Assembly (NCBI RefSeq): GCF_004365175.1
Contig: NZ_SOCE01000001.1
Coordinates: forward strand, 1 to 64,000
DNA: 64,000 bases
Origin: Kribbella voronezhensis
Lineage (GTDB): Bacteria; Actinomycetota; Actinomycetes; Propionibacteriales; Kribbellaceae
Reading direction: 5' to 3'
The first letter of the stretch is position 1. Each line of letters starts with the position of its first letter. Made by a program: the position numbers and the translations under genes. Positions 2,604 through 26,215 of this stretch are shown in pieces. The notes under the pieces are model-generated. The model was not told where the DNA came from. It made no database searches and saw nothing but the letters and a program-made list of their open reading frames with translations.

Positions 2604-2684
2604 CCAGTCCCCTCCCGCACTCAGCTCGTCAACCTTGACAACACTTCAGGTCAGCGGATGCTTCCCGACCTCACAGACCGCCGG

Positions 2685-10416: not shown

Positions 10417-11067
10417 CTAGGCCGGATAGCGCACCTTCGAGCAGTCGATGCCCTTCGGCATCGGCTTGGCCATCTGATACATCGTCCAGCCGTCCCCGGT
10501 CCGCACCATGTCGATCGCCTGCGGTGCGCCGTGTGGGGCGGTGACAACCCATCGCTTCGTCTTCGGATTCCAGTACTGCGCGGTCTGCGAGCGGCACAGG
10601 CTGACCCGTACTACGCCGTTCGGCTGTGGCTTGGCACCCACCACGACGATGCTGGCCGGCGGGCGGAGTACCCAACCGTTGGACTTCGCCGTCTCCACAT
10701 TGATGGCCGTGTCCGCGTAGAGGAAGGCGGGGAAGTTCGCCTTGATCAGCTCCGAATTCCCCTCTGCCATCGCCTGGAAGTACAGCGGGTACTTGGCCAC
10801 GAGCCCTTGGACGGCAGGCGTCGACCCGTAGTTCCCGGTGACGATGGTCAGCTTGGCTTTCCGCGGCGGCGCAGCGGTTCGGGTGGGCGTACCGGGGTTC
10901 GACGGCTCGCTCGTTCTGGGGGCCGGACTGGACAACGTGACAGTCGGCTCGCTGTCGTCGCCCACGCCGACCGGCAGGGTGCCGTTGTTCTTCTCCGACC
11001 CGCCACACCCGGCGAGCAGCAGGATCGCGGTCACGACGCCTGCCAACCTCATCGCTGGACTTCGCAC
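10417..11067 (-). CDS. Lipoprotein of the tad operon, function unknown
   Basis: 216 residues starting at GTG 11067, which has GAGGAG 8 bases upstream; an internal ATG at 11052 is the alternative. The start gives MRSPAMRLAGVVTAILLLAGC, a type II signal peptide with lipobox LLAGC, so it should be a lipid-anchored surface protein. A Thr/Ser/Pro linker follows, then a compact domain with FQAMAEGNSELIKANFPAF and MVRTGDGWTMYQM, resembling SnoaL/NTF2-like accessory domains in size, but this is only an impression. It follows the TadG-like gene after 47 bases. Confidence 0.8.
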   Translation of the reverse strand: MRSPAMRLAGVVTAILLLAGCGGSEKNNGTLPVGVGDDSEPTVTLSSPAPRTSEPSNPGTPTRTAAPPRKAKLTIVTGNYGSTPAVQGLVAKYPLYFQAMAEGNSELIKANFPAFLYADTAINVETAKSNGWVLRPPASIVVVGAKPQPNGVVRVSLCRSQTAQYWNPKTKRWVVTAPHGAPQAIDMVRTGDGWTMYQMAKPMPKGIDCSKVRYPA

Positions 11068-11114
11068 GAAAACAACTCCTCGTGGAGCGGGGACACGCTG
11101 ATGGACCGGGCTCT

Positions 11115-11957
11115 TCATTCGGTACTCCGGACGGCCGGTGCGGCGGGGGCGCCACCACCCGGCGGTGCCGATGACGATCCGCTCTCGGTCGGCTTGGAGC
11201 TGGAAGCGGTGTCGGACGGGTTGGGACCGGACGGGTCGGGACTGTCGGTGGGCGTGATCGTCGGCTTGCAGGACGCCGGGAAGGGAAGCGGGATCGGTGG
11301 TGTCCACGGTGGGGTAGGTGAACCGATCGTCCAGCTCGGGCAGGGGAAGTCGATGGTAGGCGGGTTCGCGGACGTGATCGGGGCCCCAGGACCTTCGAGG
11401 CTGGTCTCGACGACGATCGGAGGGATGGTCGGGCTGTCGTCCGCCTTCTTCACGCCTTGTTCGGCATGTGCTTCGCCCTGGCCCTTCGCGGTCAGGTTCT
11501 TGATCCCGACCATGCCCAGGAAGCTCGTCTTGTTGTCGATCTGCACGTCGACCTTCAGGTGCTCGGCGTCCAGTTCGGTCGCGCCACAGCCGGTGACCGC
11601 CGGGTCGTTCGTCCTCACCTGGGCACAGAAGTTCGCTACCGCGGCACCGGCCTTGGAGACGTCGATCTTCGCCTCGGAGGAGTTGAAGTCGATGGTCGCC
11701 ACCCCTGCGCGGGCGGCTTCTTGGGCGTAGCCGACTGCTCGGGATTTGGCGCCTAGTTGGCGGCCGCCGTCGATGACTAGGCCGGCGAGGGTGAAGATCA
11801 TGACGGCGAGGATCGCCACCGCGGGGCTGAGGGCGCCGCGGTGGTTGCGGAGGGCATCGATCAGGCGGTTGGCGCGGGGGGCGTCGATGCGGAGGTAGGC
11901 GACCGTACGCCGCCACGCGCCACGGCCGGCCCCGGGGTCAGGGAGCATCGCGGACAC
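11115..11957 (-). CDS. TadG-like pilus assembly pseudopilin
   Basis: 280 residues. A class III prepilin-like segment is present (HRGALSPAVAILAVMIFTLAG, about 40-60), but the residue five after the Gly is Ala instead of the conserved Glu, as in TadG-like proteins. The periplasmic/extracellular domain contains two Cys (FCAQVR, GCGATEL) and the tail from about 185 is Pro/Ser/Thr-rich and low-complexity. It overlaps the preceding TadE gene by 20 bases, so translation is probably coupled. TadG proteins support Flp pilus assembly in the envelope. Confidence 0.85.
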   Translation of the reverse strand: MSAMLPDPGAGRGAWRRTVAYLRIDAPRANRLIDALRNHRGALSPAVAILAVMIFTLAGLVIDGGRQLGAKSRAVGYAQEAARAGVATIDFNSSEAKIDVSKAGAAVANFCAQVRTNDPAVTGCGATELDAEHLKVDVQIDNKTSFLGMVGIKNLTAKGQGEAHAEQGVKKADDSPTIPPIVVETSLEGPGAPITSANPPTIDFPCPSWTIGSPTPPWTPPIPLPFPASCKPTITPTDSPDPSGPNPSDTASSSKPTESGSSSAPPGGGAPAAPAVRSTE

Positions 11958-12408
11958 CGCGGTAGGGGTCTAGGGAAGAGCTGAACTTCTTGGTGATCTT
12001 GGTGTCGCCGCCGATGCCGAGCAGGCCCAGGTCGCGGTAGTTGATGGTGCAGGTCACCTCGACCGACAGCGGGCTGCCGGCGGTGAAGGCGGTGGTGATC
12101 GAGCCCTCGGCGGAGGTTTTGCAGGACTCGACCGACTGACCCATCGTTCGGGAGACGGCGTCGTCGACGCGTTTCTGGGCGTCGGACAGGCTGCGGGCCT
12201 GGCTGGCGGCGCGGGCGCCGTCGCGGGCCGCGTTCTCCAGTTGCGAGGAGGTCTGGAAGTAGCGGCCGCAGGCGAGCAGGAACATGAACAGGATCAGCAG
12301 CAGCGGCGCCAGGATCACCATCTCCAGCGCCATCGTCCCCCGCTCCCGCCGCGACCTGCGCGCGGACAGCCGGCGTACCGCGCGGTTCCCCAGGGTCATC
12401 GGGCTCAC
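11938..12408 (-). CDS. TadE family pseudopilin
   Basis: 156 residues, GTG start overlapping the upstream stop as GTGA. After an Arg-rich N-terminus comes the class III prepilin signature RERGTMALEMVILAPLLLIL with Gly at the cleavage site and Glu five residues later. The exported part has two Cys (ESCKTSAEG, EVTCTINY). TadE-like pseudopilins are processed by the prepilin peptidase and take part in Flp pilus assembly. Tight overlap with both neighbours supports one transcript. Confidence 0.9.
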   Translation of the reverse strand: MSPMTLGNRAVRRLSARRSRRERGTMALEMVILAPLLLILFMFLLACGRYFQTSSQLENAARDGARAASQARSLSDAQKRVDDAVSRTMGQSVESCKTSAEGSITTAFTAGSPLSVEVTCTINYRDLGLLGIGGDTKITKKFSSSLDPYRGVRDAP

Positions 12409-12821
12409 TTGTCGTCGGCTTCGAATTGTTCGATCGGGCCGGTGGCCGTCTGGCTCACCTTCAGGGTCAGGCCGGGGACCAGCGAGACGGTCTCGCCGGT
12501 GACCGTGAACGACACCTGGCCCTCGGGGTTGTTGTACGACGGGGTCTTGACCTGGGCGTCGCCGAGGGAGTTACCGCCGAGCTGTTGTGCGTACGCCTCG
12601 ATGTCGGAGCGGACCTTCTCGCCGATCGCCGCGGTGTAGAGCGGCGGCTGGACCAGGCGGAGCCGGGAGACGCCTTCCTGGGCAGCGTTCAGCGCGACCG
12701 ACCGCCCGTACAGCCACAGGGCGGTCTGGATCGAGATGAAGATCAGCGCGAGGATCGACGGCGCGAGGATCGCCAGTTCCAGCGAACTCGCGCCGCGCTC
12801 CGAACGTCGTCGGGGCGGCAA
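12405..12821 (-). CDS. TadE family pseudopilin, second copy
   Basis: 138 residues if TTG at 12821 is used; it begins 5 bases after the stop of the Flp gene with an AAGG box in front. CTG at 12830 is an alternative; further upstream the frame overlaps the Flp gene and is unlikely. The signature SERGASSLELAILAPSILAL has the Gly and Glu of class III prepilins. The remainder has no Cys, unlike the next TadE. Two TadE-type genes in a row are usual in actinobacterial tad loci. Confidence 0.82.
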   Translation of the reverse strand: MPPRRRSERGASSLELAILAPSILALIFISIQTALWLYGRSVALNAAQEGVSRLRLVQPPLYTAAIGEKVRSDIEAYAQQLGGNSLGDAQVKTPSYNNPEGQVSFTVTGETVSLVPGLTLKVSQTATGPIEQFEADDK

Positions 12822-12826
12822 CGGGA

Positions 12827-13045
12827 TCAGCCTTGCTGGATGTCTTTGGACCGCCGGTCGATCACGCCCTTGACGATCCCGCCGATCAGCAGCGCGGCGG
12901 TGACCAGGATCGCGGAGATGATCGCCCACTCCAGGGCGGAGGCGCCGAGCTCCGTCCGGCCTTGTCTGGCGCGGGCCCGCTGGCTGTCGGCTCGGGCCAG
13001 CGCGTAGCCGACCATCACGCGGACGAGCTGAATTTCCGTGTACAT
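12827..13045 (-). CDS. flp: Flp-type pilin
   Basis: 72 residues with a GGGAAGG ribosome site. The N-terminal leader is long and basic, then comes GASALEWAIISAILVTAALLIGG: the Gly/Ala cleavage point, Glu at position 5 and a single membrane helix, as in Flp pilins. Processing would leave a mature pilin of about 38 residues ending in DIQQG. It is placed between tadC (97 bases away) and the TadE genes. It is the only canonical pilin here, so it is likely the major subunit. No prepilin peptidase gene is in the window. Confidence 0.85.
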   Translation of the reverse strand: MYTEIQLVRVMVGYALARADSQRARARQGRTELGASALEWAIISAILVTAALLIGGIVKGVIDRRSKDIQQG

Positions 13046-13141
13046 CAGGTTGCCTTCCCTGTTGAGACCGAACCCGGACCGGGGCTCAGTATGCCCTCTC
13101 CGACGGACAGAATCGCTGCTTGGATCCTTCGGGTACCCATC

Positions 13142-14062
13142 TCAGCTGCCCAGGATCGACGCGCCGGCGGGGTAGCCGAGGAACAGCATGAAGGCGGCAC
13201 ACATCACCAGCTGCGCCACCAGCATCGACTGCGACCGCTCCCCCGCCTTGCCCTCGACGTCCGCGAGTTCCTTGCGCCGCAGCGATGCCGCCCGCGACAG
13301 CAGCGAGGCGCGGATCTTGGCGCCCTCGTCACCGGCCAGCGCCAGCGCGGACGCGAGGTCGCGCAACTCCTCGACGCCGAGGTCCTCGCCGAGGCGCGCC
13401 ATCGCGTCCCAGGGCGTGATGCCGATCAGCCGGGCGTTCGCCAGGGCCTGCCGGATCCGTGCCATCGCCCAGTGGTCGCCGATCGTCGAGGCGGTCATCA
13501 GAGCCTCGGGCAGACCGCGGCCACCGGCCAGGTTCATCGCGACCAGGTCGAGGAAGCTGCCGACCACGTGCCGGAAGTCGCGGCGTCGCTGCTCCGCCTC
13601 CTTGCGCAGCGTCAGGTCCGGCAGGAAGAACGCGAACGTCATCGCGGCCAGCGTCACAACCGCCGGCGACGCGCCCGGCGCGCCGAAGCCGACGTACGAC
13701 GCCAGGAACAGGATGAACGGGATGAACACCAGCGCGCCGAGGGCGAAGAACACCTTGGTGGCAAGCATCGTCGCGAACGGCTGGTTCATCACCGCCAGAT
13801 CGCGGCGGAGCCGGCCGAACGCCCAGCCGCGCGCGTTCGCCTCCTGCTCCAGCCGCCGGCCCAGCGTCTCCCGGGCCTTGTCGACACCACCGAGCACCCG
13901 CTCGCCGGCCGCGCTCGCGGTGGCCGCGCTCGTGTACCCGGCCCGGCCGGCGTCGATCCTGGCGATCGTGGACAGCACGTTCGCGGACGGCCGGATGAAC
14001 ATCCGGACCAGCAGGAACACGCCGAGCCCCGCCAGCGCACCCGTCAGATAAGCCCACATCAT
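13142..14062 (-). CDS. tadC: Tad pilus inner-membrane platform protein TadC
   Basis: 306 residues with a type II secretion F-type domain: membrane segments near the N-terminus (WAYLTGALAGLGVFLL), at about 100-150 and at the C-terminus (VAQLVMCAAFMLFLGY), and a cytoplasmic helical part with GSFLDLVAMNLAGGRGLPEA-like sequence. TadC pairs with TadB to form the platform on which the TadA motor acts. Its ATG overlaps the tadB stop (ATGA), supporting coupling. Confidence 0.9.
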   Translation of the reverse strand: MMWAYLTGALAGLGVFLLVRMFIRPSANVLSTIARIDAGRAGYTSAATASAAGERVLGGVDKARETLGRRLEQEANARGWAFGRLRRDLAVMNQPFATMLATKVFFALGALVFIPFILFLASYVGFGAPGASPAVVTLAAMTFAFFLPDLTLRKEAEQRRRDFRHVVGSFLDLVAMNLAGGRGLPEALMTASTIGDHWAMARIRQALANARLIGITPWDAMARLGEDLGVEELRDLASALALAGDEGAKIRASLLSRAASLRRKELADVEGKAGERSQSMLVAQLVMCAAFMLFLGYPAGASILGS

Positions 14063-14964
14063 CCGCCCACCACCTCCATCCGGTCGTCGCCGGCTCTGGC
14101 GGCCCGCTTGTTGTCCGAGCGGATCAAGAACCGCTCGGGCACCTCGATCTTGGCCAGCCGCCGCAGCCAGACCAGGCCGACGGCGTACAGCAGGATGACC
14201 AGGAACAAGACGAACTGGCCGACGAAGCTGGTGTACGGCTGCACGTACGTCGGGTTGAACAGGACCAGCGTCGCCGCCACCAGCAGGGTGATCGCGACCA
14301 CCACCTGCACGCTGCGCCGGGTCGACCTGCGCTCGGCGGCGACCTTCCGGCGTACGTCGAGTTCTTCGCGGGCCGAGTCGGCCAGGGCGCTGAGCACCTC
14401 GCGCAGACCCGGGCCGCGCAGCCGGGAGTTCAGGACCAGGGCGGCGACGATCAGGTCGGCCGACGGGTCGTCCAGGTCGTCCGCGAACCGCATCAATGCC
14501 GAGGGCAACGGTTCGCGGATCCGCAGCCGGTCGACCAGCAGGTTCAGCGCGGGCTTGATCGCCGGCGCGGCGTTCACCGCGGTCGCCGGGATCGCCTGCT
14601 CCAGCCCGACCGCGCCGGCGATCGTGTCGCGCAGCGCCTCGGTCCAGGTGGCCAGCGCTTCCAGCCGGTCGATCGCGCGGCGTTCCTCACCGGTGCCGCC
14701 GAAGAACCGGTCGGCCAGCGCGGCCAGCAGTCCCAGCGCCACCGCGAGCACGAGCCACTCGGTGACGACGAGAACGAGGAGGCCGACCGCGACGCCGGCG
14801 CCCAGACGGATCAACTGCTTGCGGTTGTCCACGCTGCTGCTCCGCCGGAACAACGACGGCGTCTCTTCCCGCGGCTCGGTACCGCGCAGCGCCACGATCA
14901 GCAGCAGGACCGCGCCGCCGACCACCGCGCCGCAGATCAGGGCCAGCAGAGTTCTGTCCGTCAT
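14059..14964 (-). CDS. tadB: Tad pilus inner-membrane platform protein TadB
   Basis: 301 residues with membrane helices at the N-terminus (LLALICGAVVGGAVLLLIVAL), around 60-85 and at 220-265, and a cytoplasmic F-type domain including LRDTIAGAVGLEQAIPATA and SRLRGPGLREVLSALADSAR. It is the partner of TadC. It starts 9 bases after the tadA stop and overlaps tadC. Confidence 0.9.
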   Translation of the reverse strand: MTDRTLLALICGAVVGGAVLLLIVALRGTEPREETPSLFRRSSSVDNRKQLIRLGAGVAVGLLVLVVTEWLVLAVALGLLAALADRFFGGTGEERRAIDRLEALATWTEALRDTIAGAVGLEQAIPATAVNAAPAIKPALNLLVDRLRIREPLPSALMRFADDLDDPSADLIVAALVLNSRLRGPGLREVLSALADSAREELDVRRKVAAERRSTRRSVQVVVAITLLVAATLVLFNPTYVQPYTSFVGQFVLFLVILLYAVGLVWLRRLAKIEVPERFLIRSDNKRAARAGDDRMEVVGG

Positions 14965-14973
14965 CGGGTCACC

Positions 14974-16284
14974 TCACGCCCAGCGTCCGTGCACCATCGG
15001 CTGATAGCCGAAGTGCTCGAGTTCGTCCATACAGGCGATCGGCGCGTGCGCGGCCGCGCGGCCGTCCGGCCCGGGCGCGAACACCTCACCGGACAGCACC
15101 CGGCCGTCCCAGCCGGTCACTTCACGGATGCTCTCGACGAAGCGGCTCATCGTGCCACCGGTCTGGTAGTCGTTGTGCTTGCGGACGAACACCACGAAGT
15201 CGAGCGCGCCGGAGATCAGCATCTGGGTGGCTTCCATCGGCAGCCGCTCCTGCGACTGGATGGCGTAGGTGCTGATCCGGTTGAACACCTCCAGCGAGCT
15301 GTTCGAGTGGATCGTCGACAGCGAGCCGTCGTTGCCCTGGCTCATCGCGTTCAGCATGGTGACGATCTCGTCGCCGAGCACCTCACCGACGATCACCCGG
15401 CTGGGGTTCATCCGCAGCGAGCGGCGGACCAGATCCGCCATGCTGACCTCGCCGACACCCTCGGCGTTCGGCAGCCGCTCCTCGAACGCGACCACGTTCG
15501 GATGCAGGTCCTTGAACTCACCGAGGCCGAGTTCGAGCGAGCGCTCGACGGTGATCAGCCGCTCGTGCGGCGGGATCTCGTTCGCCAGCGCGCGCAGCAG
15601 GGTCGTCTTGCCGGAGTTGGTCGCGCCCGCGATCATCACGTTCTTGCGCGCGGCCACGGCGGCCCGCAGGAACGAGGCGATGTCCTCCGACATGGTGCCG
15701 TTGGCAACCAGGTCCTTGAGGAACACGCGACCCAGCCGGGCGCGCCGGATCGAGACCGCCGGCCGCGACGTCACGCCCATCACGGCCGACAACCGGGAAC
15801 CGTCGGGCAGCCGCAGGTCCAGCTGCGGGTTCGCCGAGTCGAACGGGCGGCTGGTCAGGCCGGCGTGCGCGGCCAGCACCTGGATCAGCTCGACGAGCTC
15901 CTCGTCGCTCTCGGCCACCGGGCCGGGCCGTTCCTCCCGGCCGTCGCCGTACTGCACGAAGACCTGGTCGTACCCGTTGATGTCGATGTTCTCCACGTCG
16001 AGGTCGTCGATCAGCGGCTGCAACCGGCCGACACCGAACAGCGCCGAGTGGATCGCGCCGGCGATCTGCGCGTCGTCCTCCGGCGTGGGCGGGGTCCGCC
16101 CTTCGGCCAGCTCGTACCGCGCGTGGTCCTCGAGCACCTGCACGATCAGGGACCGCGCGTACTCGCGTTCGTCCTCGGCACTCATCGGCGGTACGCCGTT
16201 CACCTGGTCGCGGCGGCGCTGTTCGTTCAGCCGCTCCGCGACCTGGGTCCGCAGCTTGCGGACCAGTTCCTGGTCGGTGATCAC
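14974..16284 (-). CDS. tadA: Tad pilus assembly ATPase TadA/CpaF
   Basis: 436 residues from GTG 16284, the start that gives a GTGA overlap with tadZ; a longer frame upstream is a shadow. It is a type II/IV secretion ATPase: N-terminal helical domain, then Walker A GATNSGKTT near residue 217, an Asp/Glu box region with ITVERSLELGLGE, Walker B RVIVGEVLGDE near 295 and the His-box SLSTIHSNSS. The hexamer powers Flp pilus extension at the inner membrane. The length fits the CpaF family. Confidence 0.93.
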   Translation of the reverse strand: MITDQELVRKLRTQVAERLNEQRRRDQVNGVPPMSAEDEREYARSLIVQVLEDHARYELAEGRTPPTPEDDAQIAGAIHSALFGVGRLQPLIDDLDVENIDINGYDQVFVQYGDGREERPGPVAESDEELVELIQVLAAHAGLTSRPFDSANPQLDLRLPDGSRLSAVMGVTSRPAVSIRRARLGRVFLKDLVANGTMSEDIASFLRAAVAARKNVMIAGATNSGKTTLLRALANEIPPHERLITVERSLELGLGEFKDLHPNVVAFEERLPNAEGVGEVSMADLVRRSLRMNPSRVIVGEVLGDEIVTMLNAMSQGNDGSLSTIHSNSSLEVFNRISTYAIQSQERLPMEATQMLISGALDFVVFVRKHNDYQTGGTMSRFVESIREVTGWDGRVLSGEVFAPGPDGRAAAHAPIACMDELEHFGYQPMVHGRWA

Positions 16285-17117
16285 CGCCCGTCCCTCCACT
16301 CGTCCGTGGCCGGGCCGTACCCGCTTTCTGACTGCGGGAAGGCGGCCTGGGCCATGTCGAAGTCGCGCTGGGTCGGCCGGGCGGCCACGGCGGCCATCTC
16401 GGCGGCGATGTCGGTGGCCGAGCGAATCAGCGGCGTACGGTCCAGGCGGCCGTGGCCGCGGCCGTCGAAGAACGCGGCGCCGACCGGGTCGTAGGCCAGG
16501 TGCCAGCGGTGCTGGATCGGCATGGACATCGCGTCCAGCACCGACCACACCTGCTTGACGCCGTCGCGCCGCTTCGGGTCGGCGACCACGATCACGCCGA
16601 GCTGGGCGTCGACGTGATGCACCAGCGACGCCAGCCGCTCGCGCAGATGCGCGACGGACGAGCCGGTCGCCGTACAGACCATCACGACCAGCCGGGCGGC
16701 CTGTACGACGGGAAGTTGCGGCGAGGCCGGCCCGATCCGGCCGCAGTCGGCCAGTACGTCGGCGCTGTGCATCTGGTTGAACGAGATCCCCAGCGGGGCC
16801 CACAGGCCACCCATGCCACCGATCTGCTCGGCGGACCGGACCCCGATCATCACGTCCAGCCCACCGTCCAGCTGCTGGCTGTGGGCGAGGATCACGTCGT
16901 CGCCGAGGCCCTTGCGGCCGGCCGCGGCGAGGCTGATCAGCCCGCGGTCGGAGTTCAGCGGCTGACCACCGGGAGCGGTCATCCGGATCGCGACGTCGCT
17001 TCCGGCCGGATCACACTCGGCCAGCAACACCGGCCGCGGCCACAGCGCGCCGAGCACGAGGCCGGCCGTCGTCACTCCCGGCGAGCCCTTGGCGCTCGCC
17101 AATGCGACCAGTGCCAT
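16281..17117 (-). CDS. tadZ: TadZ/CpaE-like ParA-family localisation protein
   Basis: 278 residues from ATG 17117, which shares one base with the upstream TGA. It starts with a deviant P-loop, ASAKGSPGVTTAG, where the Lys normally before Thr-Thr is Val, followed by LLAECDPAGSD, the switch-like Asp segment of SIMIBI ATPases. TadZ/CpaE proteins position the pilus machinery at the pole or septum; loss of the second P-loop Lys is common in this group and suggests weak or no ATP hydrolysis. Position directly ahead of tadA supports the call. Confidence 0.82.
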   Translation of the reverse strand: MALVALASAKGSPGVTTAGLVLGALWPRPVLLAECDPAGSDVAIRMTAPGGQPLNSDRGLISLAAAGRKGLGDDVILAHSQQLDGGLDVMIGVRSAEQIGGMGGLWAPLGISFNQMHSADVLADCGRIGPASPQLPVVQAARLVVMVCTATGSSVAHLRERLASLVHHVDAQLGVIVVADPKRRDGVKQVWSVLDAMSMPIQHRWHLAYDPVGAAFFDGRGHGRLDRTPLIRSATDIAAEMAAVAARPTQRDFDMAQAAFPQSESGYGPATDEWRDGR

Positions 17118-17839
17118 CAACCGTCTCCGTCGGTCTGGGCGATCGACGGCTTGGTGGCCGGCGAGAGCTTCACCAGAACGAGGTTCTTGCCCGCGGCCGC
17201 GGCCGCCACGGCCGTGGAGTTCTCCATCGGCACCAGGACGGTCACGTTCAGCGTCGTGTTCGCGCCGGTCTTGGAATCGGCCACGGTGCCCGTGCTGTCG
17301 GTCACCAGGGCGGCGCCGACCAGGACCTGTGGTGCGCCCTCGGCGTTCGCCGACGGCACCCGGATGACCCTGACGATGTCGCCCTGGCTGACGTCGTCCG
17401 ACGGTGCCCGTCCGCTGTCGAGGCTGACGCCGACCAGCGCGCCGCCTTCGGGGATCGGCTTGGTCGTGAGGTTCGCCTCGGTGAGGAACTGGCCCTTGTA
17501 CACCCAGCTCGTCGTGTACTTCCCGAGCACCTTGTCGGCGTCGGCCCACAGCACCAGTTTCCCGGTCGCGCCGGCCAGGTCGCCGCGAGCCAGGTCCTTG
17601 GAGACCAATTTGTGCCCGGGAGCCAGCGCCTCGGCATCGATGGCGACGAAGTCCTGCCGGTGGCCGCTGCGGACCGCGATCAGCGCGGATCCGGCCGCGC
17701 CGAGCAGGATCAGGATCACCGCCAGGGCGGCCAGGGCGGGGCGGCGCTCACGGCCGCTGGGCAGTCGGGTCGAGCCGGAGACCGGTGCCTTGCCGCGGGC
17801 GCCGGCCGCCGAGGGACGCGAGGAGGACGAGAAACTCAC
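17117..17839 (-). CDS. CpaB/RcpC-like pilus protein with SAF domain
   Basis: 240 residues from GTG 17839 (ten codons shorter than the longest frame). A Ser/Arg-rich N-terminus, one membrane segment at about 35-55 (ALAALAVILILLGAAGSALIAV), then a SAF-like domain with VAIDAEALAPGHKLVSKDL and GALVGVSLDSG. SAF domains of CpaB/RcpC bind carbohydrate and stabilise the secretin or cell-wall passage of the pilus. It is the first gene of the tad operon, facing the giant-protein gene. Confidence 0.82.
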   Translation of the reverse strand: MSFSSSSRPSAAGARGKAPVSGSTRLPSGRERRPALAALAVILILLGAAGSALIAVRSGHRQDFVAIDAEALAPGHKLVSKDLARGDLAGATGKLVLWADADKVLGKYTTSWVYKGQFLTEANLTTKPIPEGGALVGVSLDSGRAPSDDVSQGDIVRVIRVPSANAEGAPQVLVGAALVTDSTGTVADSKTGANTTLNVTVLVPMENSTAVAAAAAGKNLVLVKLSPATKPSIAQTDGDG

Positions 17840-18072: not shown

Positions 18073-18139
18073 TTTGCTAACGTCCCGACTGACCGTGACG
18101 GCTGTCCGGCGAACCGGATCCGAACAGGGGGCCCGCCTG

Positions 18140-21100
18140 GTGACGACTCCTGCGATTCGCGCTGCCGCACCGGCCGACCGCGCACATGCGGCGCTCGGAA
18201 CCGCGCTCGGCGTCGTCGCGCCCGAAGCGCTGCTGCTGCAGGACGGTGGCGTCCGGCTGACCGGCGATCGCGATGTCCTCGGCGCCGACGCGATGGGCCG
18301 GCTGGTCGAGCGGCTGACCGCCCGGGCCGCGGACCAGGCTTCCGACGACCGGATCCTGGCCGAGGCGACCGCGTTGCTGGGCGCTGAGATCACTCGCGCC
18401 CGCGGCGGCCGGTTCCCGGCCGATGGGTCCACCGCGGCACTCGATGCCCTGCTCGACGTACCGGATCTCGGTGCGGGGAGTCGGCAAGAGGCGGAGATCC
18501 TGCTGCGCGGCGTACTGGAAGGCAGTGCGGACACCTCGGATTCGGCGGCCGCACGCCTGGCGGAGCTGACTGCGAGGGAGCGCCGGCCGCTGCCTGCCGA
18601 TGTGGTGGACGCAGCGTGGGATATCCACCGCGAGGCCCAGGTGCTGCAGCGGACCCAGCCCAGCGCAGTACGGCGTACCGGCAGCGGGCGGCATCGCAAT
18701 ACGGTCGGCCGTCGCCGCGTCGCGCTCGTGACGGCACCGGAGCAGCGCAAGACCGGATTGGTGGCGGGCGGCCGTCCTGCGGCTCAAGCAGATCTCACCG
18801 ACGACGCAGTACTGCGCGCGCTCGCTCAGGTCCAGCCGGCTGACTTCGCGGGCAGTGTGACCGCCCCGCCGACGGCGCTCGACGTACCGAGGGTCGCGGT
18901 GTTCGAGACCGCCGCGCACGGCAAGCAGCACGTGCGGGTCGAGATCGCCGACCCCGGCTACGGCCGGGTCGCCGCGGCCGATGTCCGCTCGGGTAGCGCG
19001 GACAACCCCCACGTACTACGGGTCGGCGCGCGCGTCGACGATGCGCAGCTGGCCAGGATCTGGGTCAACCAGTTCAGCCGGATCCAGCAGCAGGTCGGCG
19101 TCGACCGGCCGCGCGGTTTCGCGGACCGGCTTCGGGCGCTGGTGAATCACGAGGGCCGCGACCGCCGGCTGGCCGGGCAGTACGACGAGTTCCGGCTGCT
19201 CACCAGGAACTGGCGAGAGGCTCGCGGTCAGGTCGCCTCGACCGGCCAGGTCAGCGGACCGCAGAGCGTCGAAGAGCTCGAGCGCGATCTGCGCGGTCTC
19301 GCGGCCACGATCGGCCGACGAGGCGGCACTCCCCCGGCGTTGCCGTGGACCTCGGGTGCGACCGTCGTCCCGGTGGTCGCCTCGGCCGGGATGACGACGC
19401 CCGCGGTCACCGCGGCGCCGAACACCCCGGCCCATCTCCGCGAGCGGGTCACCGTCGAGATCGCCACCCTCGACCGGTCGATCGACGATCTGACCGGACG
19501 CGTCGCGGCCAAGGAGGAAAGCGCTGCCGCCGCGCGAAAGGAAGGCGGCAAGAAGCGCGACGACGCCGGCGAGGAATCGGCGAAGAACGACCAGGGCGCC
19601 CCGGAGCGGGCCCGGAAGCTGCTGGTCGAGGCCTCGGCCGCCGACGGCAAGGCGAGACGCCACACGGAGCAGGCGGCCGTGCTCCGGTCCGCTCTCGGTG
19701 AGGCGACCGAGGCCAGGGCCGCCTATGTTGCACTGGGCAACGAGTTGGACGCGGTCGTCGCCGATCCGCGCAAGTCGATCGCCGACGTGCTCCCGTTGTC
19801 GCAGGCAGCGGCGGAGCAGACCGAGGCGTTCCAGCGCAGCCTGGCCAAGGCGGCACCCCGCAGGGATGTCTTGCACAGCGGGGCTCCCACCGGCCGGCTG
19901 CCGCATCTGACGGCGCTGACCGCGCACCTCAACCAGGTGCTCGAGGCAAACAACCTTCCGCACCGCTTCACCACCGAGATGCTGCACAGGACGTTGCGGG
20001 CCGAGTTCCGCCGGGTGATGTCGCCGGACGGCCTGGTGCTGCCGCTCGGTGGTGATCCGTCGGACGACGTCCGCGAGCTCGCCCAGGTGCGGTTGAAGTT
20101 GCAGCCAGGTGAACTGGCCGAGGTGATGGATCCCGAGGTGAAGCTGGCCGAGCTGATGGTCGGTCAGCTCGAGCAGGGCGGGCACGGCGTCTCGGCGACG
20201 GCGACCGGGACGTTCGGGCGCACCGGCGGGTTCAGCCTGAAGACGCTGATGGCGATGATGCCGGCCACCGACCCGGTCACGGCGGCGGCCAAGGTCGTTG
20301 CCCCCGGCTACGAGTTCGCCTTCGGCCGGAGCCGTTCGGTGACTACGGCCGCCACCGAGTACGCGCTCGGCGGAGCGGTCGAGGACAACCGGGGCGAATC
20401 GCAGCTGTTCGAAGGCGCGGCGGGCTGGGAGGTCGAAGTACGGACCTCGGCGGTCGGGCCGTGGTCTGCCGCCGGCCGGGTGGACACGTCCGGGCCGCGC
20501 GACTCGGGCTCCCTGAAGGTGTGGGTGTCGGCGGCGTACGTCGTGGATCCGCCGAAGGACACCACCACGATCGCTGAGCTGGGTGAGGCGCGTGACCCGG
20601 CGTTGCCGGAGCACGTCGCGACGGACGTCCGCGGGCTCGGCGACCTGGTGGACAAGACGATCCGCGGTACTCGTGAGCGGCTCAATGTGCTGGACCGGGT
20701 CGCGCACGACCAGATCCGCAACCTGCTCACCGAGGAGTTGCCGAGCAGGCTGGACGAGGCGACGAAGCCGGGCGGGATCGGCCGGTTGATCTACAGCGGC
20801 GGCGAGCCGGTCGCGTACGCGCAGGTCGAGACCGAGGTTGTCTGGGAGAAGGCCGAACTCGTCGGCGAGACCAGTACCGACCACTGGCAGGAACGGCTCC
20901 GGGTCGGCTTCTCCGGTGCCACCGGCAACGAAGGGTTCGCCGCGAACAGCTCGTCCTCGCTCACGCTGGGCTATGCGGGCGACGCGCTGTCGGACCTCGG
21001 ATCGACGAACGTCGACTTCGGGCCGACGGTGAAGGCAGGCCGGAGTACGTCGCGCAGCGACAGCATGAGCGCCGGCGGTACTGCGATTCACCCGAGCGTG

Positions 21101-24100
21101 CAGCGTTACACCGGGCCGACGCAGGGCTACCGGATGACGCTCAAGCACAAGGTGACCGTGCACCAGATCGGCGGCAAGGGGAAGTTCACCGAGAAAGGCG
21201 AGGGCACCGCCCTGCTGCGGTTCCCGGAGAAGGACGCCTTCCGGTACGGGCTCCCGGTCGACAAGGCCGCGGTCGTGCGCGAACCCGACGGAAAGCCGCG
21301 GAAGGACAAGAAGGAGCGGATCCTGCTGCGCGGGGATCCCCAGCCGACCGAGGAAGAGCTGCAGCTTCCGGACTGGATCGGCGACGAGCCGGGTCGGATG
21401 CGAGGGGCCGGCCCCGCTCTGGTCCAGCACGTCACAGGTGCGGACAAAGCACTCGACGCGACTGCCCGTGCTCTGAGCCGGCAGGGGTTGCTGCCGCCGC
21501 TCGACGCCAAGGGTCGGCCGCGCCTCGACGCACTGCCCAAGGACCCGCTCCTGCGAGCAAGCCAGTTGCAGAACTACGAGCGGCTCCATCAGCACCTCTC
21601 TGCCCTGCGGTTGGAGACCGGCTACGACCAGGCGGCTCAGAGTGGCCTGCCGCTCGCCCTGGTGGAACACCGCGCCGGCCACGCCCCGCAGTACCGGACG
21701 TTCCGGATCGGCCTGCAGCAGAATTTCGGCAAGGCCACCTGTCTCGGGGTGACCGACGCCGAGGCCGTGGTGAACCTGGACATCGCGTCGCGGACATCCG
21801 GACGCTCGGGTGGGCGGTCCAAGCGGCTGCCGTGGGGAATCACCTTCGGTTTCAGCGACAATCCGGCCACCGGTCATGCGGGACAGACTCCGCAGGGCGG
21901 TCCCAGCTACGGACGGGCCTCGCTCGGTCGCTTCATGAACTGGGCGACCGGCGGCACTGTCAACCAGGTCGCCCTGGTGGAGAGCACAGCACCGGTCGCG
22001 GTCTTCGACGTACCGCACAAGCTCGTACTCACCGAGGTCACCGCGGCTGGTGACAGCGAGCCGCTGGCCGAGGTGGACGGCAGCGCCTCGGTGCTGCTGG
22101 ACAGCGAATTGCTCAACCAGAAGGACGTCCCGGCCGCCACTCCGTTCCAGGGCCGGACCAGCGAGGCCGTCCTCGATCAGGCCAAACTTCTGCACCTGGA
22201 CATCCGCGACCCGCTCAAGCGGATCCAGGCGGCCCTCCCGGCGGCCTCCCGACCCGACGGTCCCGGCTATCACCACCTTGCCGCGTTCCTCAACGCCAGG
22301 AATCTGATCGCCCACCCGGAGTGGAAGACCACGGAGTACCGGACCAGGATCGGGCTCAGCCCGGCGCCGAGCTCACTCCCCCAGGCGATCGCCCAGCAAG
22401 GGCTTCGCCCTCGGCGGGCGACGGTGTCCCTGACCGCAAAGGTGGAGAATCACACCTTCCTGCGCGCGACCCATCAGGTCTCCGGTGACATCAACCTGAC
22501 GCTCGGCAGCTACAGCACGACCGACGGAAGCTCGACCGGGAACAACGCCGGCGTCTCCGGCGGCAGCGGGATGGCCGGTGCGGACGGCAGCGCCGTCGGT
22601 GGTTCGGCCGGCTGGAGCCGGAGCGGCAGCGAGTCGCGGTCCCGCAGCGAGACCCAGATCTGGGGCTGGGAGCGGCTGCGGATCGAGATCGGCCAGCACT
22701 ACGTGTTCAAGGCCGACGTGAACTTCACCGCCAAGGTCGCCGACGGCGAGTCCGCCGAACCGCAGCAGATCAAGCTCGACGACGGCACCGTGCTGTTCAC
22801 GTTGCCCGAGCGCGACGCCCTGCGGCTGTACGGGCGACGCGAACTCGACCTGCCGCTGCATCAGGTGGCGGATGCCGCCGAGCGGTTCCTCAAGGGCGAC
22901 CTGACCATGGACCGCCGTACTGCGAGTGCCTTCGTCCGGCGCTACGAGTCGGAGAAGTCCGGCGTGACGGACGGGCTGGCCGCGACTCATACCCGAGCCC
23001 AACTGGCGACGAAGGTTCGTGAGCTGGCCGGTATGGGCAGCGCGGCGGCGGGCACTCCGCAGGCCGAGTTGGAGAACACCCTCGACACGGCCGACGAACT
23101 GGTCGCCAAGACGACCGAGGTCTCGCTACCGGAGCACTACAACTCCATGATGGGCGCGGCGCTGATCGAGAAGACCGAGTTCACCAACGAAGCGGGCACC
23201 AGCCTCGACGTCCACGCCGCCGTGAAGTCGGCCGTCGAGCAGGCCGCGCCCGGCCGCTTCGAGAAGGACCCGATCCTGTCCGAGAGCCTGTACGGCGATC
23301 TGGCCGGCAAGCGCTGGCAGGGTCACCTCGACGACATGCTCGACCCGCGCGGCTTCGTCAAGGAGTACCCGGTCAAGACCTCCGGGACCGGGCCACCCGA
23401 GGTACTGCGGCTCCGGGTCCGCGCGGTCTTCGCTGGGCCGGTGGTCGGCGACGGCACCGAGGAAAGCGCGATCAGCATCGTCCAGGGCTACGACTACGAA
23501 GAGTTCAGCCGCAGCCGGTCGCACAGCACCAGTCACTCCTTCAACGTCGGCGGCGCCGGCAACGAAGCCCTCGGTGGCAACGTCGGGGTGAGCACCGACC
23601 AGAGCCGGACGAGCTCGGCCTCCAGTGGCGAGCAGTCGACGATGTTGCAGCGGATGCTGCACGGCAAGACCAGCCGGGTCGAACGGCAGATGCACCTCCT
23701 GGTCGAGGTGGAACGGCTTCCGGTCGCCGGTGGTTCGACGAAGGGCATCCTGCGCCGCAACGCCGATCGGGCGGTGTCCGAGGACCGCGGTGGCTACGGT
23801 GCCGAACTGTTGTCCGGGGGCATGACCCAGTTGGTGCCGACCGCCGTGCTGAACAGCCCGCCCACTCCGAAGTCGACCCCGGAGCGGCAGGACCACCGCG
23901 AGGTCGTCCTGCCCGCGTCGTACTTCGTCGAGGGCACGCGCCCTTACCTGCAAGGCGAACCGGAGACGGACAAGCTGTTCGACACGATCGCCGAGCGGTT
24001 GGCCGCACGCGACATGCTGTCGGTCAACGGTGTCCGGATGCACCGCACGGAACTGGAGAACCAGCTGTCCGCATCGGTCCGGAGTGCCGCCTTCCACCGG

Positions 24101-25138
24101 ATGGCCAGCGACGAGGGCCACCGGATGGTTCGGCTGCCCGTGCCGGGGCACGGCAACCAGGTGGTCGACGTCCGGGTCGCCGCGCGGGTGTCCGACGTAC
24201 AGCTCGTCGGGAACCCGATCGAGGACGGCCAGCTCGGCGTCATCGACCGGATCCAGCGAACGGCCAAGACCTCCGCAACCGCCAACCAGTGGGTGCCCGC
24301 GAGCGGGGCCGGCGGTGGCGGCGCCGGGGCACTCGGCGTCTCGGCCGGGGTGTCCGTCGGCGAACAGGCGTCGTACACCGACTCCGACACCACCGGGAAC
24401 CGCAACGAGCTGAGCAAGTACGAGAAGGGCACCCTGGTCACCGTGCGGGTGCGGGTCGATTACGACCTGACCTTCGAGCGTTCGAAGCTGACCCGAGGCG
24501 GCGACGAGAAGGTGAAGAAGTCCGACTCGATGAGCCAGGTCGCCACCGGCGAGGCCTACCTGACCATGTTCGAACAGCAGTACCTCGAGATGCGCGAGCG
24601 GATGGAGACGGGTGCCTCGCTGTCCGAAGCGTTGGAGGGACTCGATCCGCAGGTCGCGGGACGGCACCAGTTCGCTTTCGACCACACGGAGAACGAGGCC
24701 GGCCAACCGGAGTACCACCCGTATCAGCCGATGCTGGACGCGCTGGCCGAGGCGCGCAAGGACGGCACCACGGTTCAGCTGACGATCCAGCAGCAGGACG
24801 GACAGGTCCGGACCTATCAGGCCAAGCCGGACGGCACGATGCGTGGCCTGAACGACGGCGGCTTCGGGGCAGCGTTCGCGACCCTGCATCCGCGGCTGGC
24901 TCAACTGGCCGAAGGCCGGGTCGATCTGCAGCAACTGTTCAACACGGCGGAGCGGACGAAGCACTTCAGTGGCGCTGTCTCCGAAGCACTGCAGAAGAAG
25001 GGCATTCCGGCCGCAGCATTGACTGAGCTGGACCACTCGCTTGCTGCCCGCGCCGCCGCAAGCCGTACTGCGGGCGACGGTGCCCGGCGGCAGACGCAGG
25101 CCGCTCCCGCTGCCCACGGTGTGGAGATCTCGTCGTGA
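18140..25138 (+). CDS. Giant protein with repeated Ser/Gly hairpin modules, function unknown
   Basis: 2332 residues from GTG 18140, chosen for AGGGGG 9 bases upstream; GTG 18095 or TTG 18047 would add 15 or 31 residues. No signal peptide or membrane helix is seen. Residues up to about 420 are Ala/Arg-rich; about 435-550 are highly charged and probably coiled coil. From about 650 onward beta-rich modules recur, each with a Ser/Arg/Gly-rich stretch: RSRSVTTAATEYALGG near 730, GRSTSRSDSMSAGG near 970, SGRSGGRSKR near 1220, SRSGSESRSRSET near 1495, SRSRSHSTSHSF near 1790, GEQASYTDSDTTGN near 2075. Two modules end in a shared FPEKDAFRYG / LPERDALRLYG block. I count one Cys (near 1201). It resembles, from memory, giant actinobacterial proteins often found beside polymorphic-toxin loci, but no toxin domain is visible at its C-terminus. 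Two small genes follow in the same operon. Confidence 0.9.
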   Translation: MTTPAIRAAAPADRAHAALGTALGVVAPEALLLQDGGVRLTGDRDVLGADAMGRLVERLTARAADQASDDRILAEATALLGAEITRARGGRFPADGSTAALDALLDVPDLGAGSRQEAEILLRGVLEGSADTSDSAAARLAELTARERRPLPADVVDAAWDIHREAQVLQRTQPSAVRRTGSGRHRNTVGRRRVALVTAPEQRKTGLVAGGRPAAQADLTDDAVLRALAQVQPADFAGSVTAPPTALDVPRVAVFETAAHGKQHVRVEIADPGYGRVAAADVRSGSADNPHVLRVGARVDDAQLARIWVNQFSRIQQQVGVDRPRGFADRLRALVNHEGRDRRLAGQYDEFRLLTRNWREARGQVASTGQVSGPQSVEELERDLRGLAATIGRRGGTPPALPWTSGATVVPVVASAGMTTPAVTAAPNTPAHLRERVTVEIATLDRSIDDLTGRVAAKEESAAAARKEGGKKRDDAGEESAKNDQGAPERARKLLVEASAADGKARRHTEQAAVLRSALGEATEARAAYVALGNELDAVVADPRKSIADVLPLSQAAAEQTEAFQRSLAKAAPRRDVLHSGAPTGRLPHLTALTAHLNQVLEANNLPHRFTTEMLHRTLRAEFRRVMSPDGLVLPLGGDPSDDVRELAQVRLKLQPGELAEVMDPEVKLAELMVGQLEQGGHGVSATATGTFGRTGGFSLKTLMAMMPATDPVTAAAKVVAPGYEFAFGRSRSVTTAATEYALGGAVEDNRGESQLFEGAAGWEVEVRTSAVGPWSAAGRVDTSGPRDSGSLKVWVSAAYVVDPPKDTTTIAELGEARDPALPEHVATDVRGLGDLVDKTIRGTRERLNVLDRVAHDQIRNLLTEELPSRLDEATKPGGIGRLIYSGGEPVAYAQVETEVVWEKAELVGETSTDHWQERLRVGFSGATGNEGFAANSSSSLTLGYAGDALSDLGSTNVDFGPTVKAGRSTSRSDSMSAGGTAIHPSVQRYTGPTQGYRMTLKHKVTVHQIGGKGKFTEKGEGTALLRFPEKDAFRYGLPVDKAAVVREPDGKPRKDKKERILLRGDPQPTEEELQLPDWIGDEPGRMRGAGPALVQHVTGADKALDATARALSRQGLLPPLDAKGRPRLDALPKDPLLRASQLQNYERLHQHLSALRLETGYDQAAQSGLPLALVEHRAGHAPQYRTFRIGLQQNFGKATCLGVTDAEAVVNLDIASRTSGRSGGRSKRLPWGITFGFSDNPATGHAGQTPQGGPSYGRASLGRFMNWATGGTVNQVALVESTAPVAVFDVPHKLVLTEVTAAGDSEPLAEVDGSASVLLDSELLNQKDVPAATPFQGRTSEAVLDQAKLLHLDIRDPLKRIQAALPAASRPDGPGYHHLAAFLNARNLIAHPEWKTTEYRTRIGLSPAPSSLPQAIAQQGLRPRRATVSLTAKVENHTFLRATHQVSGDINLTLGSYSTTDGSSTGNNAGVSGGSGMAGADGSAVGGSAGWSRSGSESRSRSETQIWGWERLRIEIGQHYVFKADVNFTAKVADGESAEPQQIKLDDGTVLFTLPERDALRLYGRRELDLPLHQVADAAERFLKGDLTMDRRTASAFVRRYESEKSGVTDGLAATHTRAQLATKVRELAGMGSAAAGTPQAELENTLDTADELVAKTTEVSLPEHYNSMMGAALIEKTEFTNEAGTSLDVHAAVKSAVEQAAPGRFEKDPILSESLYGDLAGKRWQGHLDDMLDPRGFVKEYPVKTSGTGPPEVLRLRVRAVFAGPVVGDGTEESAISIVQGYDYEEFSRSRSHSTSHSFNVGGAGNEALGGNVGVSTDQSRTSSASSGEQSTMLQRMLHGKTSRVERQMHLLVEVERLPVAGGSTKGILRRNADRAVSEDRGGYGAELLSGGMTQLVPTAVLNSPPTPKSTPERQDHREVVLPASYFVEGTRPYLQGEPETDKLFDTIAERLAARDMLSVNGVRMHRTELENQLSASVRSAAFHRMASDEGHRMVRLPVPGHGNQVVDVRVAARVSDVQLVGNPIEDGQLGVIDRIQRTAKTSATANQWVPASGAGGGGAGALGVSAGVSVGEQASYTDSDTTGNRNELSKYEKGTLVTVRVRVDYDLTFERSKLTRGGDEKVKKSDSMSQVATGEAYLTMFEQQYLEMRERMETGASLSEALEGLDPQVAGRHQFAFDHTENEAGQPEYHPYQPMLDALAEARKDGTTVQLTIQQQDGQVRTYQAKPDGTMRGLNDGGFGAAFATLHPRLAQLAEGRVDLQQLFNTAERTKHFSGAVSEALQKKGIPAAALTELDHSLAARAAASRTAGDGARRQTQAAPAAHGVEISS

Positions 25139-25148
25139 AAGGAACGAT

Positions 25149-25664
25149 ATGGCGTTCGCGGTAGCTCGTACGCCGGATGAGGCACTCCTGTACGCCGAGT
25201 TGGCGCCCTGCGAGGACTGCGGCGCGCTGGCGACCGAGTGGAAGCAAGGGCTGACCTCGGTCGATGGCGAGCTCGCGATCAGCTACCTGGCCGCTTGTCC
25301 GGGCTGTGGGGCGGGGCGCGAACTCCTGTTCGGCATGCCTGCGCAGGAGACAGCCCCAGGGCCATTCCCGACCTTCGGTGGCGAGGAGCCGTCCGAGATC
25401 TTCGACGCCGGTCAGTGGCTGGAGATCGCGGACAACGCGGCCCGCGACGTACCGATCGACGACGCTGCCGAGGCGGGCCGGCGGCTGGCGCTGGCGCGGG
25501 CGGCGGTCGACGAGGTGGTCAAGTTCATCCCGGCCGGCGAGCACGCAGTACCGGACGACGCGTTCTGGACCGAGCAGGGGTCGCGGCTACGAGCCGGCGA
25601 ACCGGGTAGGTTCCGGCTGGAACGACTGCTCGTCGTTCGCGACAGCTATCGAGGAGATGCCTGA
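25149..25664 (+). CDS. Small zinc-ribbon protein coupled to the giant gene
   Basis: 171 residues, ATG 10 bases after the giant-gene stop with GAAAGGA in front. It starts with VARTPDEALLYAEL, then has CEDCG (about 21) and CPGCG (about 50), a four-Cys zinc ribbon. The second half (EIFDAGQWLEIADNAARDV, then AVDEVVKFIPAGEHAVP and FRLERLLVVRDSYRG) aligns by eye with the next gene product. No annotated domain is recognised. Immunity protein, chaperone or assembly partner for the giant protein are all possible; the operon order suggests a dedicated partner. Confidence 0.85.
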   Translation: MAFAVARTPDEALLYAELAPCEDCGALATEWKQGLTSVDGELAISYLAACPGCGAGRELLFGMPAQETAPGPFPTFGGEEPSEIFDAGQWLEIADNAARDVPIDDAAEAGRRLALARAAVDEVVKFIPAGEHAVPDDAFWTEQGSRLRAGEPGRFRLERLLVVRDSYRGDA

Positions 25665-26215
25665 TGCTTACCGCACGGACGCTGGCCGAGGCGCACATCT
25701 ATGCGAGCGTGATGGCCGCGGCGGACGCACCGGATGCCACTGCCGCAGCCGCCGAGGAGACGCTGGCCGAGGGGGCCGATACCTGGACCCTGAACGTCCG
25801 TGGTTACGAGATCGAGGTCCCGTACGCCTCGGAGCAGGCGGCGCGGCAGGTCGGCGCCCGGTTCGGGCTGGGCGTGTCGCAACTGGTCGACGCGGGGCAA
25901 TGGGTGCTGGTGGCAACGACGTACGCGCGGCGGGCGCTCGACCTCGATCTGGCCTACGACAACGGACCCGAGTCCGAGCGGCGCAGCATCGAGCTGAACT
26001 GGATGTTCGCGGCCGACGCGCTGACCGAGGCGGTCAAGTTCCTGCCCGAGGACGCCGAGGCGATCCCGGCCGAGGTGCTGTGGTCGGAGCTCGGCCGGCA
26101 GACCTACCGGCAGCAGCCCGAGCTGTTCCAGCGGGCGAAACTGGTCGACGACCTCGAGTACTACCGTGGCACGCTCGACGACTTCCGCGCCCTGCACGGC
26201 GGCCCGTCGGCCTGA
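25664..26215 (+). CDS. Paralogue of the preceding small protein, without Cys
   Basis: 183 residues. Its ATG overlaps the preceding stop as TGATG and has GAGGAG 7 bases upstream, so it is translationally coupled. It shares with its neighbour the opening ARTxxEAxxYA, the central DAGQWxxxAxxxAR and the ending in VKFxPEDAEAIPAEVLW, then PELFQRAKLVDDLEYYRG. The zinc-ribbon Cys are absent and replaced by an Ala/Glu-rich stretch. It looks like a tandem duplicate that lost metal binding. Function unknown; context ties it to the giant protein. Confidence 0.85.
   Translation: MLTARTLAEAHIYASVMAAADAPDATAAAAEETLAEGADTWTLNVRGYEIEVPYASEQAARQVGARFGLGVSQLVDAGQWVLVATTYARRALDLDLAYDNGPESERRSIELNWMFAADALTEAVKFLPEDAEAIPAEVLWSELGRQTYRQQPELFQRAKLVDDLEYYRGTLDDFRALHGGPSA

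Follow-up and report, generated by a model that had tools for sequence, protein, structure and literature searches.

The locus considered here raises the question of what a protein of 2332 residues, encoded back to back with two small genes and next to a cluster of pilus genes, might do for its host. It lies in a 64,000-nt stretch of Kribbella voronezhensis DNA (assembly GCF_004365175.1, contig NZ_SOCE01000001.1), referred to below as the window. The open reading frame (ORF) of the giant (18140..25138, + strand) starts with GTG, with longer in-frame starts available at 18095 and 18047, and 10 bases separate its stop from the ORF for P0002 (25149..25664, +), a putative zinc-ribbon protein of 171 residues with a helical C-terminal domain; this is joined by a TGATG overlap to the ORF for P0003 (25664..26215, +), a Cys-free paralogue of 183 residues. 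An earlier note, made from the sequence alone, had described this layout, and all of its elements are present. All three are genuine genes that evolve under purifying selection, with ratios of non-synonymous to synonymous substitution (dN/dS) of ~0.10 and ~0.14 for the giant gene against its relatives at loci L003 and L034 (loci are designated L and genomes G), and of 0.08–0.17 for the P0002 and P0003 genes. Because these ratios are low, and because a giant and a zinc-ribbon gene recur together in four loci of family f92 (with the paralogue in two of them), the arrangement is not due to chance. None of the three proteins has a match above cut-off in Pfam, NCBIfam or PADLOC, and an anti-phage defence system was set aside since no PADLOC defence model matched.

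Our preferred answer, tentative and rated as possible rather than probable, is that the window giant stands alone as a stripped derivative of a module which, in effector-like giants of the ESX-type type VII secretion system (T7SS), makes up the ~2000 residues at the C terminus, and that it acts as a surface beta-tube together with the Tad pilus apparatus. At the level of sequence, the comparisons demonstrate a common module, a clean division between Tad-linked short forms and T7SS-linked long forms, the absence of N-terminal heads from the window copy, the loss of a zincin motif, and the conservation of the small partners. The module of ~2000 residues is undescribed and has no family entry in the libraries searched, and a literature search gave no paper recognisable as dealing with it, as judged mostly from the search listings.

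A search with residues 1388–1787 of the giant, a 400-residue piece that was the only part used as query, identified 66 places in 34 of 58 related genomes, all belonging to one genus, Kribbella (34 of its 37 members), and the neighbourhoods of these copies are of two kinds. EccB (PF05108) lies within 30 kb of all 17 long forms, at distances of 19–28 kb, and a TadA orthologue lies near none of them; a TadA orthologue is found within 30 kb of 47 of the 49 short forms, and EccB near only one, a 1486-residue frame in G012 that is possibly a fragment. The second short copy of G035 has neither gene within 30 kb. Fourteen genomes with short giants, the window genome among them, have no EccB match, and 7 of the 24 EccB loci of the genus lack a giant within 30 kb. 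The f92 genomes G521 and G556 have the series giant, zinc-ribbon gene and paralogue followed directly by EccB, while in G704 EccB sits beside a piece of the paralogue at the start of another contig, and in G728 EccB and the giant are on different contigs. Upstream of the window giant there is a divergent Tad/Flp pilus cluster (10417..17839, − strand), not YbaB-like or Esx-size genes; YbaB-like genes are found upstream of the giants in L059, L065 and L104. By Pfam the window cluster encodes a TadG-like protein, two TadE proteins, two T2SSF proteins (TadB/C) and a T2SSE ATPase (TadA); the labels TadZ, Flp (small and pilin-like) and CpaB/RcpC are assigned from position, and the CpaB homologue in L036 has an RcpC match at E 0.005, below the cut-off.

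The long relatives are frames of 3741–7523 residues, and their N-terminal parts distinguish them from the window giant. A WXG100_2 domain (PF25547) was found by Pfam at the start of all three long Kribbella frames scanned whole with their start (L055, L065 and L067) and of both f92 starts scanned (L106 and L107), and it also opens the giant of G302 and the proteins of L108 and L109, which have no core. L058 and, judging by frame length, L061 are cut at the start, and only their heads are observed. Two types of head occur, a SecA-like motor domain (L055 and L061 by Pfam, L056 and L059 by similarity, with GEGKT in all four) and an Endonuclea_NS_2 nuclease domain (L065, L067 and L058 by Pfam, L069 and L070 by similarity). 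One of the four loci with SecA-like heads falls in another clade of the core tree described below, which indicates that heads were swapped. The window giant has neither head by Pfam or similarity; it has no Pfam match up to E 1, and so no WXG100_2, RHS or Tad family domain, and no toxin domain is recognisable in Pfam or NCBIfam. An RHS-type shell was rejected as a description of the window giant for lack of an RHS match in Pfam. The long giants resemble the CpnT-type T7SS effectors in opening with WXG100_2 near EccB, although the toxin of CpnT is placed C-terminally (PMC8092274), whereas in the long giants the heads are N-terminal with the module after them; the window giant is further removed, having neither WXG100_2 nor a recognised toxin domain. 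The suggestion in the earlier note of a secreted effector thus suits the relatives, with their WXG100_2 domains, heads and EccB neighbours, better than the window copy, which has no export tag, enzymatic head or zincin site and whose genome lacks EccB.

The first 190 residues of the giant form a region, N1 (18140..18709, +), that hidden Markov model matches place also in L055, L104 and L106, and it is followed by a domain, D2 (residues 197–420, 18728..19399, +), which we take to be zincin-like from the HExxH...NE motif of its relatives. A search of PDB sequences gave no match confirming a family or structure for D2; matches to designed helical proteins (best E 7e-4) align only a charged helical stretch and are taken as chance. 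Among 23 D2 copies from long or other proteins the motif is HExxH in 10, HExxD in 7 and something else in 6, with NE after most of the HExxH copies. None of 19 short copies has HExxH, Gln replaces Glu in all 19, and the window copy reads NQFSR (residues 310–314, 19067..19081, +). By sequence D2 is evidently a mobile domain: three f92 giants (L104, L105 and L107) have an additional copy at the C terminus, L106 has the second half of such a copy, and the proteins of L108 and L116 contain D2 but no core. Its presence goes with that of the partners: a partner gene lies directly downstream of 29 of the 33 giants with the first half of D2 versus 5 of the 13 without it (Fisher p 0.0015, for rows that are related and not independent), and both partners follow 19 of 33 versus 1 of 13. 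In this tabulation L065/L066 were treated as a single gene, as were L067/L068; L042_13950 and L043_13924, which are truncated by the end of the locus, were excluded, together with L060 and the two loci that have no core, L108 and L116.

The loss of the zincin motif in all 19 short copies invites a different explanation, namely that the giant is an inactive homologue which stays in the cytosol and, as a decoy or regulator, binds the partners or incoming related effectors. The earlier note's description of the giant as soluble, which stands as far as tested (no 19-residue segment exceeds 1.6 on the Kyte-Doolittle scale, and hence there is no membrane segment), would agree with this, as would the presence of giants in the 14 genomes without EccB. 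However, 2332 residues under fairly even constraint would be a costly decoy, and no defence model was matched; we consider this explanation distinctly unlikely.

What the short and long forms share is a core beta-module, at approximately residues 600–2160 of the window giant (19937..24619, +), delimited by sequence comparison and AlphaFold2. The earlier note had called the giant a repeat protein, and comparison of its profile with itself does give one good repeat pair (residues 1657–1819 and 1918–2073, probability 93%), but the remaining pairs are overlapping (87%) or weaker. An AlphaFold2 model of residues 1130–2320 built from 39 sequences has a predicted local distance difference test score (pLDDT) of 80.8 and a predicted template modelling score of 0.72, with several turns of low confidence, and contains strands of 53, 49, 44 and 41 residues; consecutive strands probably pair as hairpins in this model. 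Five stretches of biased composition, all on the + strand, punctuate this part of the protein. The first two are rich in Gly, Ser, Thr and Asn, and comprise residues 922–971 (20903..21052), outside the folded segment, and 1205–1263 (21752..21928). Gly/Ser-rich stretches lie between predicted strands of 33 and 32 residues (residues 1448–1497, 22481..22630) and at the turn of the predicted 53- and 49-residue strands (residues 1785–1834, 23492..23641), and a Gly/Ala/Ser-rich one separates the predicted 44- and 41-residue strands (residues 2033–2089, 24236..24406), where the turn is of low confidence. No PDB sequence matches the giant profile (E up to 1). Foldseek places the PlyB pore first among matches to the core model (E 4.5e-5), with complement C9 at 8.5e-4, and VIA-align matches it to the barrels of EspP (Z 10.2, root mean square deviation 3.7, 169 residues), AIDA-I (10.1, 4.2, 180) and FapF (9.5, 3.4, 144). 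The residues aligned by VIA-align are spread over model positions 92–957, which fits a barrel built from several repeats, although the Z values are not decisive. In 14 of 16 core strands hydrophobicity alternates more than the shuffle mean. The likeness to PlyB/MACPF pores and to EspP and AIDA-I is thus one of long strands in a barrel-like arrangement, seen through weak fold matches; unlike these proteins, the giant has no PDB sequence match and would be a single chain with strands of up to ~50 residues.

A cargo-free pore-forming toxin, released to perforate competitors while the small proteins protect the producer or chaperone the giant, would account for the weak pore-like fold matches and for the Gly/Ser-rich turns of the long hairpins, and also for the fact that both partners follow 31 of the 49 short forms. 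It could further draw on L108, where a single open frame at positions 1313–3127, located downstream of a WXG100_2-D2 protein, combines a SUKH domain, which is a known immunity fold, with a WHH-nuclease match and a zinc-ribbon-like stretch. We nevertheless judge it unlikely: the giant is conserved (dN/dS ~0.10–0.14) with no clearly hypervariable region save the last ~30 residues, it bears no export tag, and the window genome has no EccB. A bolder reading sees the module as a beta-barrel translocon built from a single chain, in a phylum of Gram-positive bacteria: the diverged repeats would donate giant hairpins to one barrel, the nuclease or SecA-like motor at the N terminus of a T7SS-linked protein would be threaded through that protein's own C-terminal channel in the manner of an autotransporter-like effector, and the Tad-linked form would be a domesticated, cargo-free channel working with the pilus at cell contact. 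This is quite improbable in our estimation; if true, a single-chain barrel would be an unusual way to build a pore or conduit.

In a maximum-likelihood tree of 48 cores the short and the long forms cluster, with two label changes each; the tree is a quick run with a midpoint root, and its support values come from the Shimodaira-Hasegawa-like approximate likelihood ratio test (SH-aLRT) without bootstrap. Five long forms (L054–L057 and L061, three of them SecA-headed) nest within the short cluster with SH-aLRT of 97–100, and the module therefore seems to have moved between contexts at least twice. The intact HExxH of the long cluster suggests that the motif was lost in the short one.

Of the small partners, P0002 has CxxC pairs at positions 21/24 and 50/53, of which C50 and C53 are invariant among 21 family members and C21 and C24 nearly so, and by this pattern it is a two-knuckle zinc-ribbon protein. 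P0003, which has no Cys, shares with it a homologous C-terminal part of ~98 residues (33% identity, E 5e-10). The AlphaFold2 fold of P0002 (pLDDT 91.8) consists of a ribbon and a helical domain. The matches of P0002 to Zn_ribbon_LysW and HVO_0649 are weak and far below cut-off, and against PDB sequences there are weak rows, the best to a Churchill protein (E 0.007) and others to RNA polymerase zinc ribbons; P0003 has a single chance-level row there. MIT-like and FliS-like folds were considered for P0002 and found unconvincing, the helical rows reaching Z <=7.4 at most and reflecting common arrangements. The AEAHxY-like opening that the earlier note gave for such small proteins is recognisable in the family consensus (ART.DEA.LY / ARTLAEAQVY).

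Within Kribbella the partners keep company with the giant. Both small-protein profiles match in the same 34 genomes as the giant; in G003 and G014 the zinc-ribbon match is only a cross-match with the paralogue, which leaves the zinc-ribbon family in 32 of the 34, and the paralogue is present in all 34 of the 37. G008, G020 and G028, the members that have no giant, also lack both partners, and all three families are absent from the 21 other genomes of the order. Taking the 47 strongest zinc-ribbon rows (E <=1e-33) and the 35 strongest paralogue rows (E <=3e-57), and leaving out weaker rows that are mostly cross-matches between the two small families, 45 of 47 and 35 of 35 lie near a giant, the orphans being G036:C80 and G002:C1:1001632; small-protein rows far from any giant are also found at G027:C1:2457216 and G036:C40 (zinc-ribbon profile) and at G027:C1:2457198 (paralogue profile). 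Directly downstream of the 49 short forms, in a tally reaching 4.5 kb past the end of the fragment, there are both partners in 31, the zinc-ribbon gene only in 6, the paralogue only in 3 and neither in 9; for the 17 long forms the zinc-ribbon gene alone follows in 7, the paralogue alone in 1 and neither in 9. The long copy in G035 and the first long copy in G032 are tallied as partnerless, yet a zinc-ribbon gene follows the frame (L066 and L068). Beyond the genus, a phylum-wide search with the giant piece matched at least 2 of 396 genomes, the window's own and G302, and a class-wide search with the zinc-ribbon profile matched 15 of 394 genomes in 8 genera, its own included; in four f92 genomes a giant of 3215–3321 residues precedes the zinc-ribbon gene, two of them having the paralogue too. 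Ten further zinc-ribbon loci, outside Kribbella and f92, have no core giant within the 8–20 kb fetched, and two of these core-less loci, L108 and L116, contain just the D2 domain. The earlier expectation of a dedicated, undescribed unit is therefore borne out in Kribbella, where the small genes lie near a giant without family match, but elsewhere the zinc-ribbon protein also occurs without a core giant in the stretches fetched. The partners were also considered as universal chaperones of the module, and this was rejected on account of the SecA-headed giants, beside which the fetched stretches contain no partner gene.

On our preferred reading, the module would be a single folded chain of diverged repeats, and their long hairpins would assemble into a beta-tube or pore. 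The long forms may use it to carry or deliver the N-terminal head, a nuclease or a SecA-like motor, at a target membrane, and the short, Tad-linked form would be without catalytic activity and serve as a surface structure that works with the Tad apparatus at cell contact. P0002 and P0003 would be cytosolic partners, either export chaperones or former immunity proteins, and possibly bind the D2 region. Several observations weigh against this. First, the sequence data reveal no export route for the short giant. Secondly, the structural matches are weak, with template modelling scores of 0.05–0.12 and aligned parts of less than one fifth of the model, Z values of ~10 are little above the typical best Z of 7–8 stated for the tool, and strand amphipathicity is weak, with 3 of 16 strands passing p 0.05 (0 of 10 control helices). 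Thirdly, 13 of the 23 long or other D2 copies are themselves without HExxH, 7 of them having HExxD; the tree is unrooted, so that loss rather than gain is our inference; and partner genes are missing beside the SecA-headed giants within the stretches fetched. Fourthly, the Tad link amounts to one orthologous locus in one genus in which the SUF flank is also widely conserved, and G028 keeps the Tad cluster and the SUF flank without giant or partners. The confidence placed in this reading overlaps with that placed in its rivals, since the readings themselves overlap.

The last of these points bears on two further explanations. If the adjacency to Tad were a coincidence of vertical inheritance, with the giant having an unrelated role, one would find just such a single locus in a single genus with its SUF cluster conserved too, and the empty site of G028. 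The link is however kept in the window, L003 and L034 though the other flank differs, and in all 9 fetched loci with a second type of Tad cluster, one of which is partial, an EssC-like ATPase is the neighbour; we regard coincidence as somewhat doubtful. Alternatively, the giant may be a structural or adhesive Tad protein without pore function, for example a giant adhesin associated with the pilus or surface. The presence of orthologous TadA within 30 kb of 47 of the 49 short forms speaks for this, as do the Tad pili of Myxococcus, which are reported to bear interchangeable tips required for killing (PMC12075869). It is at odds with the persistence of the Tad cluster without a giant in G028, and with the service of the same module in T7SS-linked proteins, and we think it improbable. 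An obligatory Tad component was rejected on the evidence of G028. At the giant and partner site of that genome (L077) there is a gene of the phosphotransferase family (APH) encoding 244 residues; G008 and G020 lack the TadA orthologue and carry a 71–72% paralogue of it.

The preferred reading of the window giant, a surface structure derived from a T7SS effector module, has partial parallels in published systems. Garrett et al. 2024 (PMC11217815) report that T7SSg and T7SSh are always beside Tad genes and leave the meaning open. The likeness is that Tad genes adjoin T7SS-related genes; the difference is that T7SSg and T7SSh are secretion machines of Bacillota, whereas in the Actinomycetota considered here Tad has as neighbours a module derived from an effector and, in separate loci, an EssC-like ATPase. 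In the Kil/Tad system of Myxococcus contact killing is Tad-dependent (PMC12075869, PMC8460266), the common point being a Tad apparatus coupled to accessory proteins and contact-dependent action. In actinobacteria, Zhang et al. 2012 (PMC3482391) mention very large proteins that carry several toxin domains, lethal-factor-like peptidases among them. The size, the actinobacterial hosts and the lethal-factor-like metallopeptidase, to which D2, zincin-like by motif, may be likened, are points in common, but the passages seen hold no module, small partners or Tad link. What emerges from the present comparison is a module with dedicated partners that seems to have switched between effector-like proteins linked to T7SS and a stand-alone form linked to Tad, and this bears on the question, raised for Bacillota by Garrett et al., of whether the proximity of Tad and T7SS is functional. 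Kribbella makes this question testable by gene removal, since the genus has Tad next to T7SS-related genes in two different settings, as well as a natural variant without heads and a site from which the giant is absent.

The second type of Tad cluster has a TadA 69–72% identical to that of the window and occurs in 10 places, of which 9 were fetched (L078, L079, L080 and L118–L123), one from another genus of the order. All nine have an EssC/EccC-like FtsK ATPase frame alongside, at 35–79% to the frame of L078, that of L118 being a 227-residue piece at a contig edge ~10 kb away. Proteins of ~88–114 residues, many with WxG, are encoded near these loci, and a Tad-T7SS hybrid cluster in Actinomycetota is a possible interpretation.

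Three further observations concern the wider family. The 6439-residue giant frame of L067 (G032) has two tandem copies of the core. In G302 (L074–L076, contig 23, 38920–76041) a frame of 12,373 residues opens with WXG100_2, lies ~12 kb from EccB and contains a module core at residues 8489–9981 that is 25% identical; NCBIfam scans of two pieces gave no match, and Pfam scans of three pieces gave WXG100_2 only. Lastly, orphan zinc-ribbon-like genes in L110, L111, L112 and L114 are divergent to genes for proteins of 787–1044 residues, those of L110, L111 and L114 having no Pfam match, and near the orphan gene of L112 is the only RHS match that was found.

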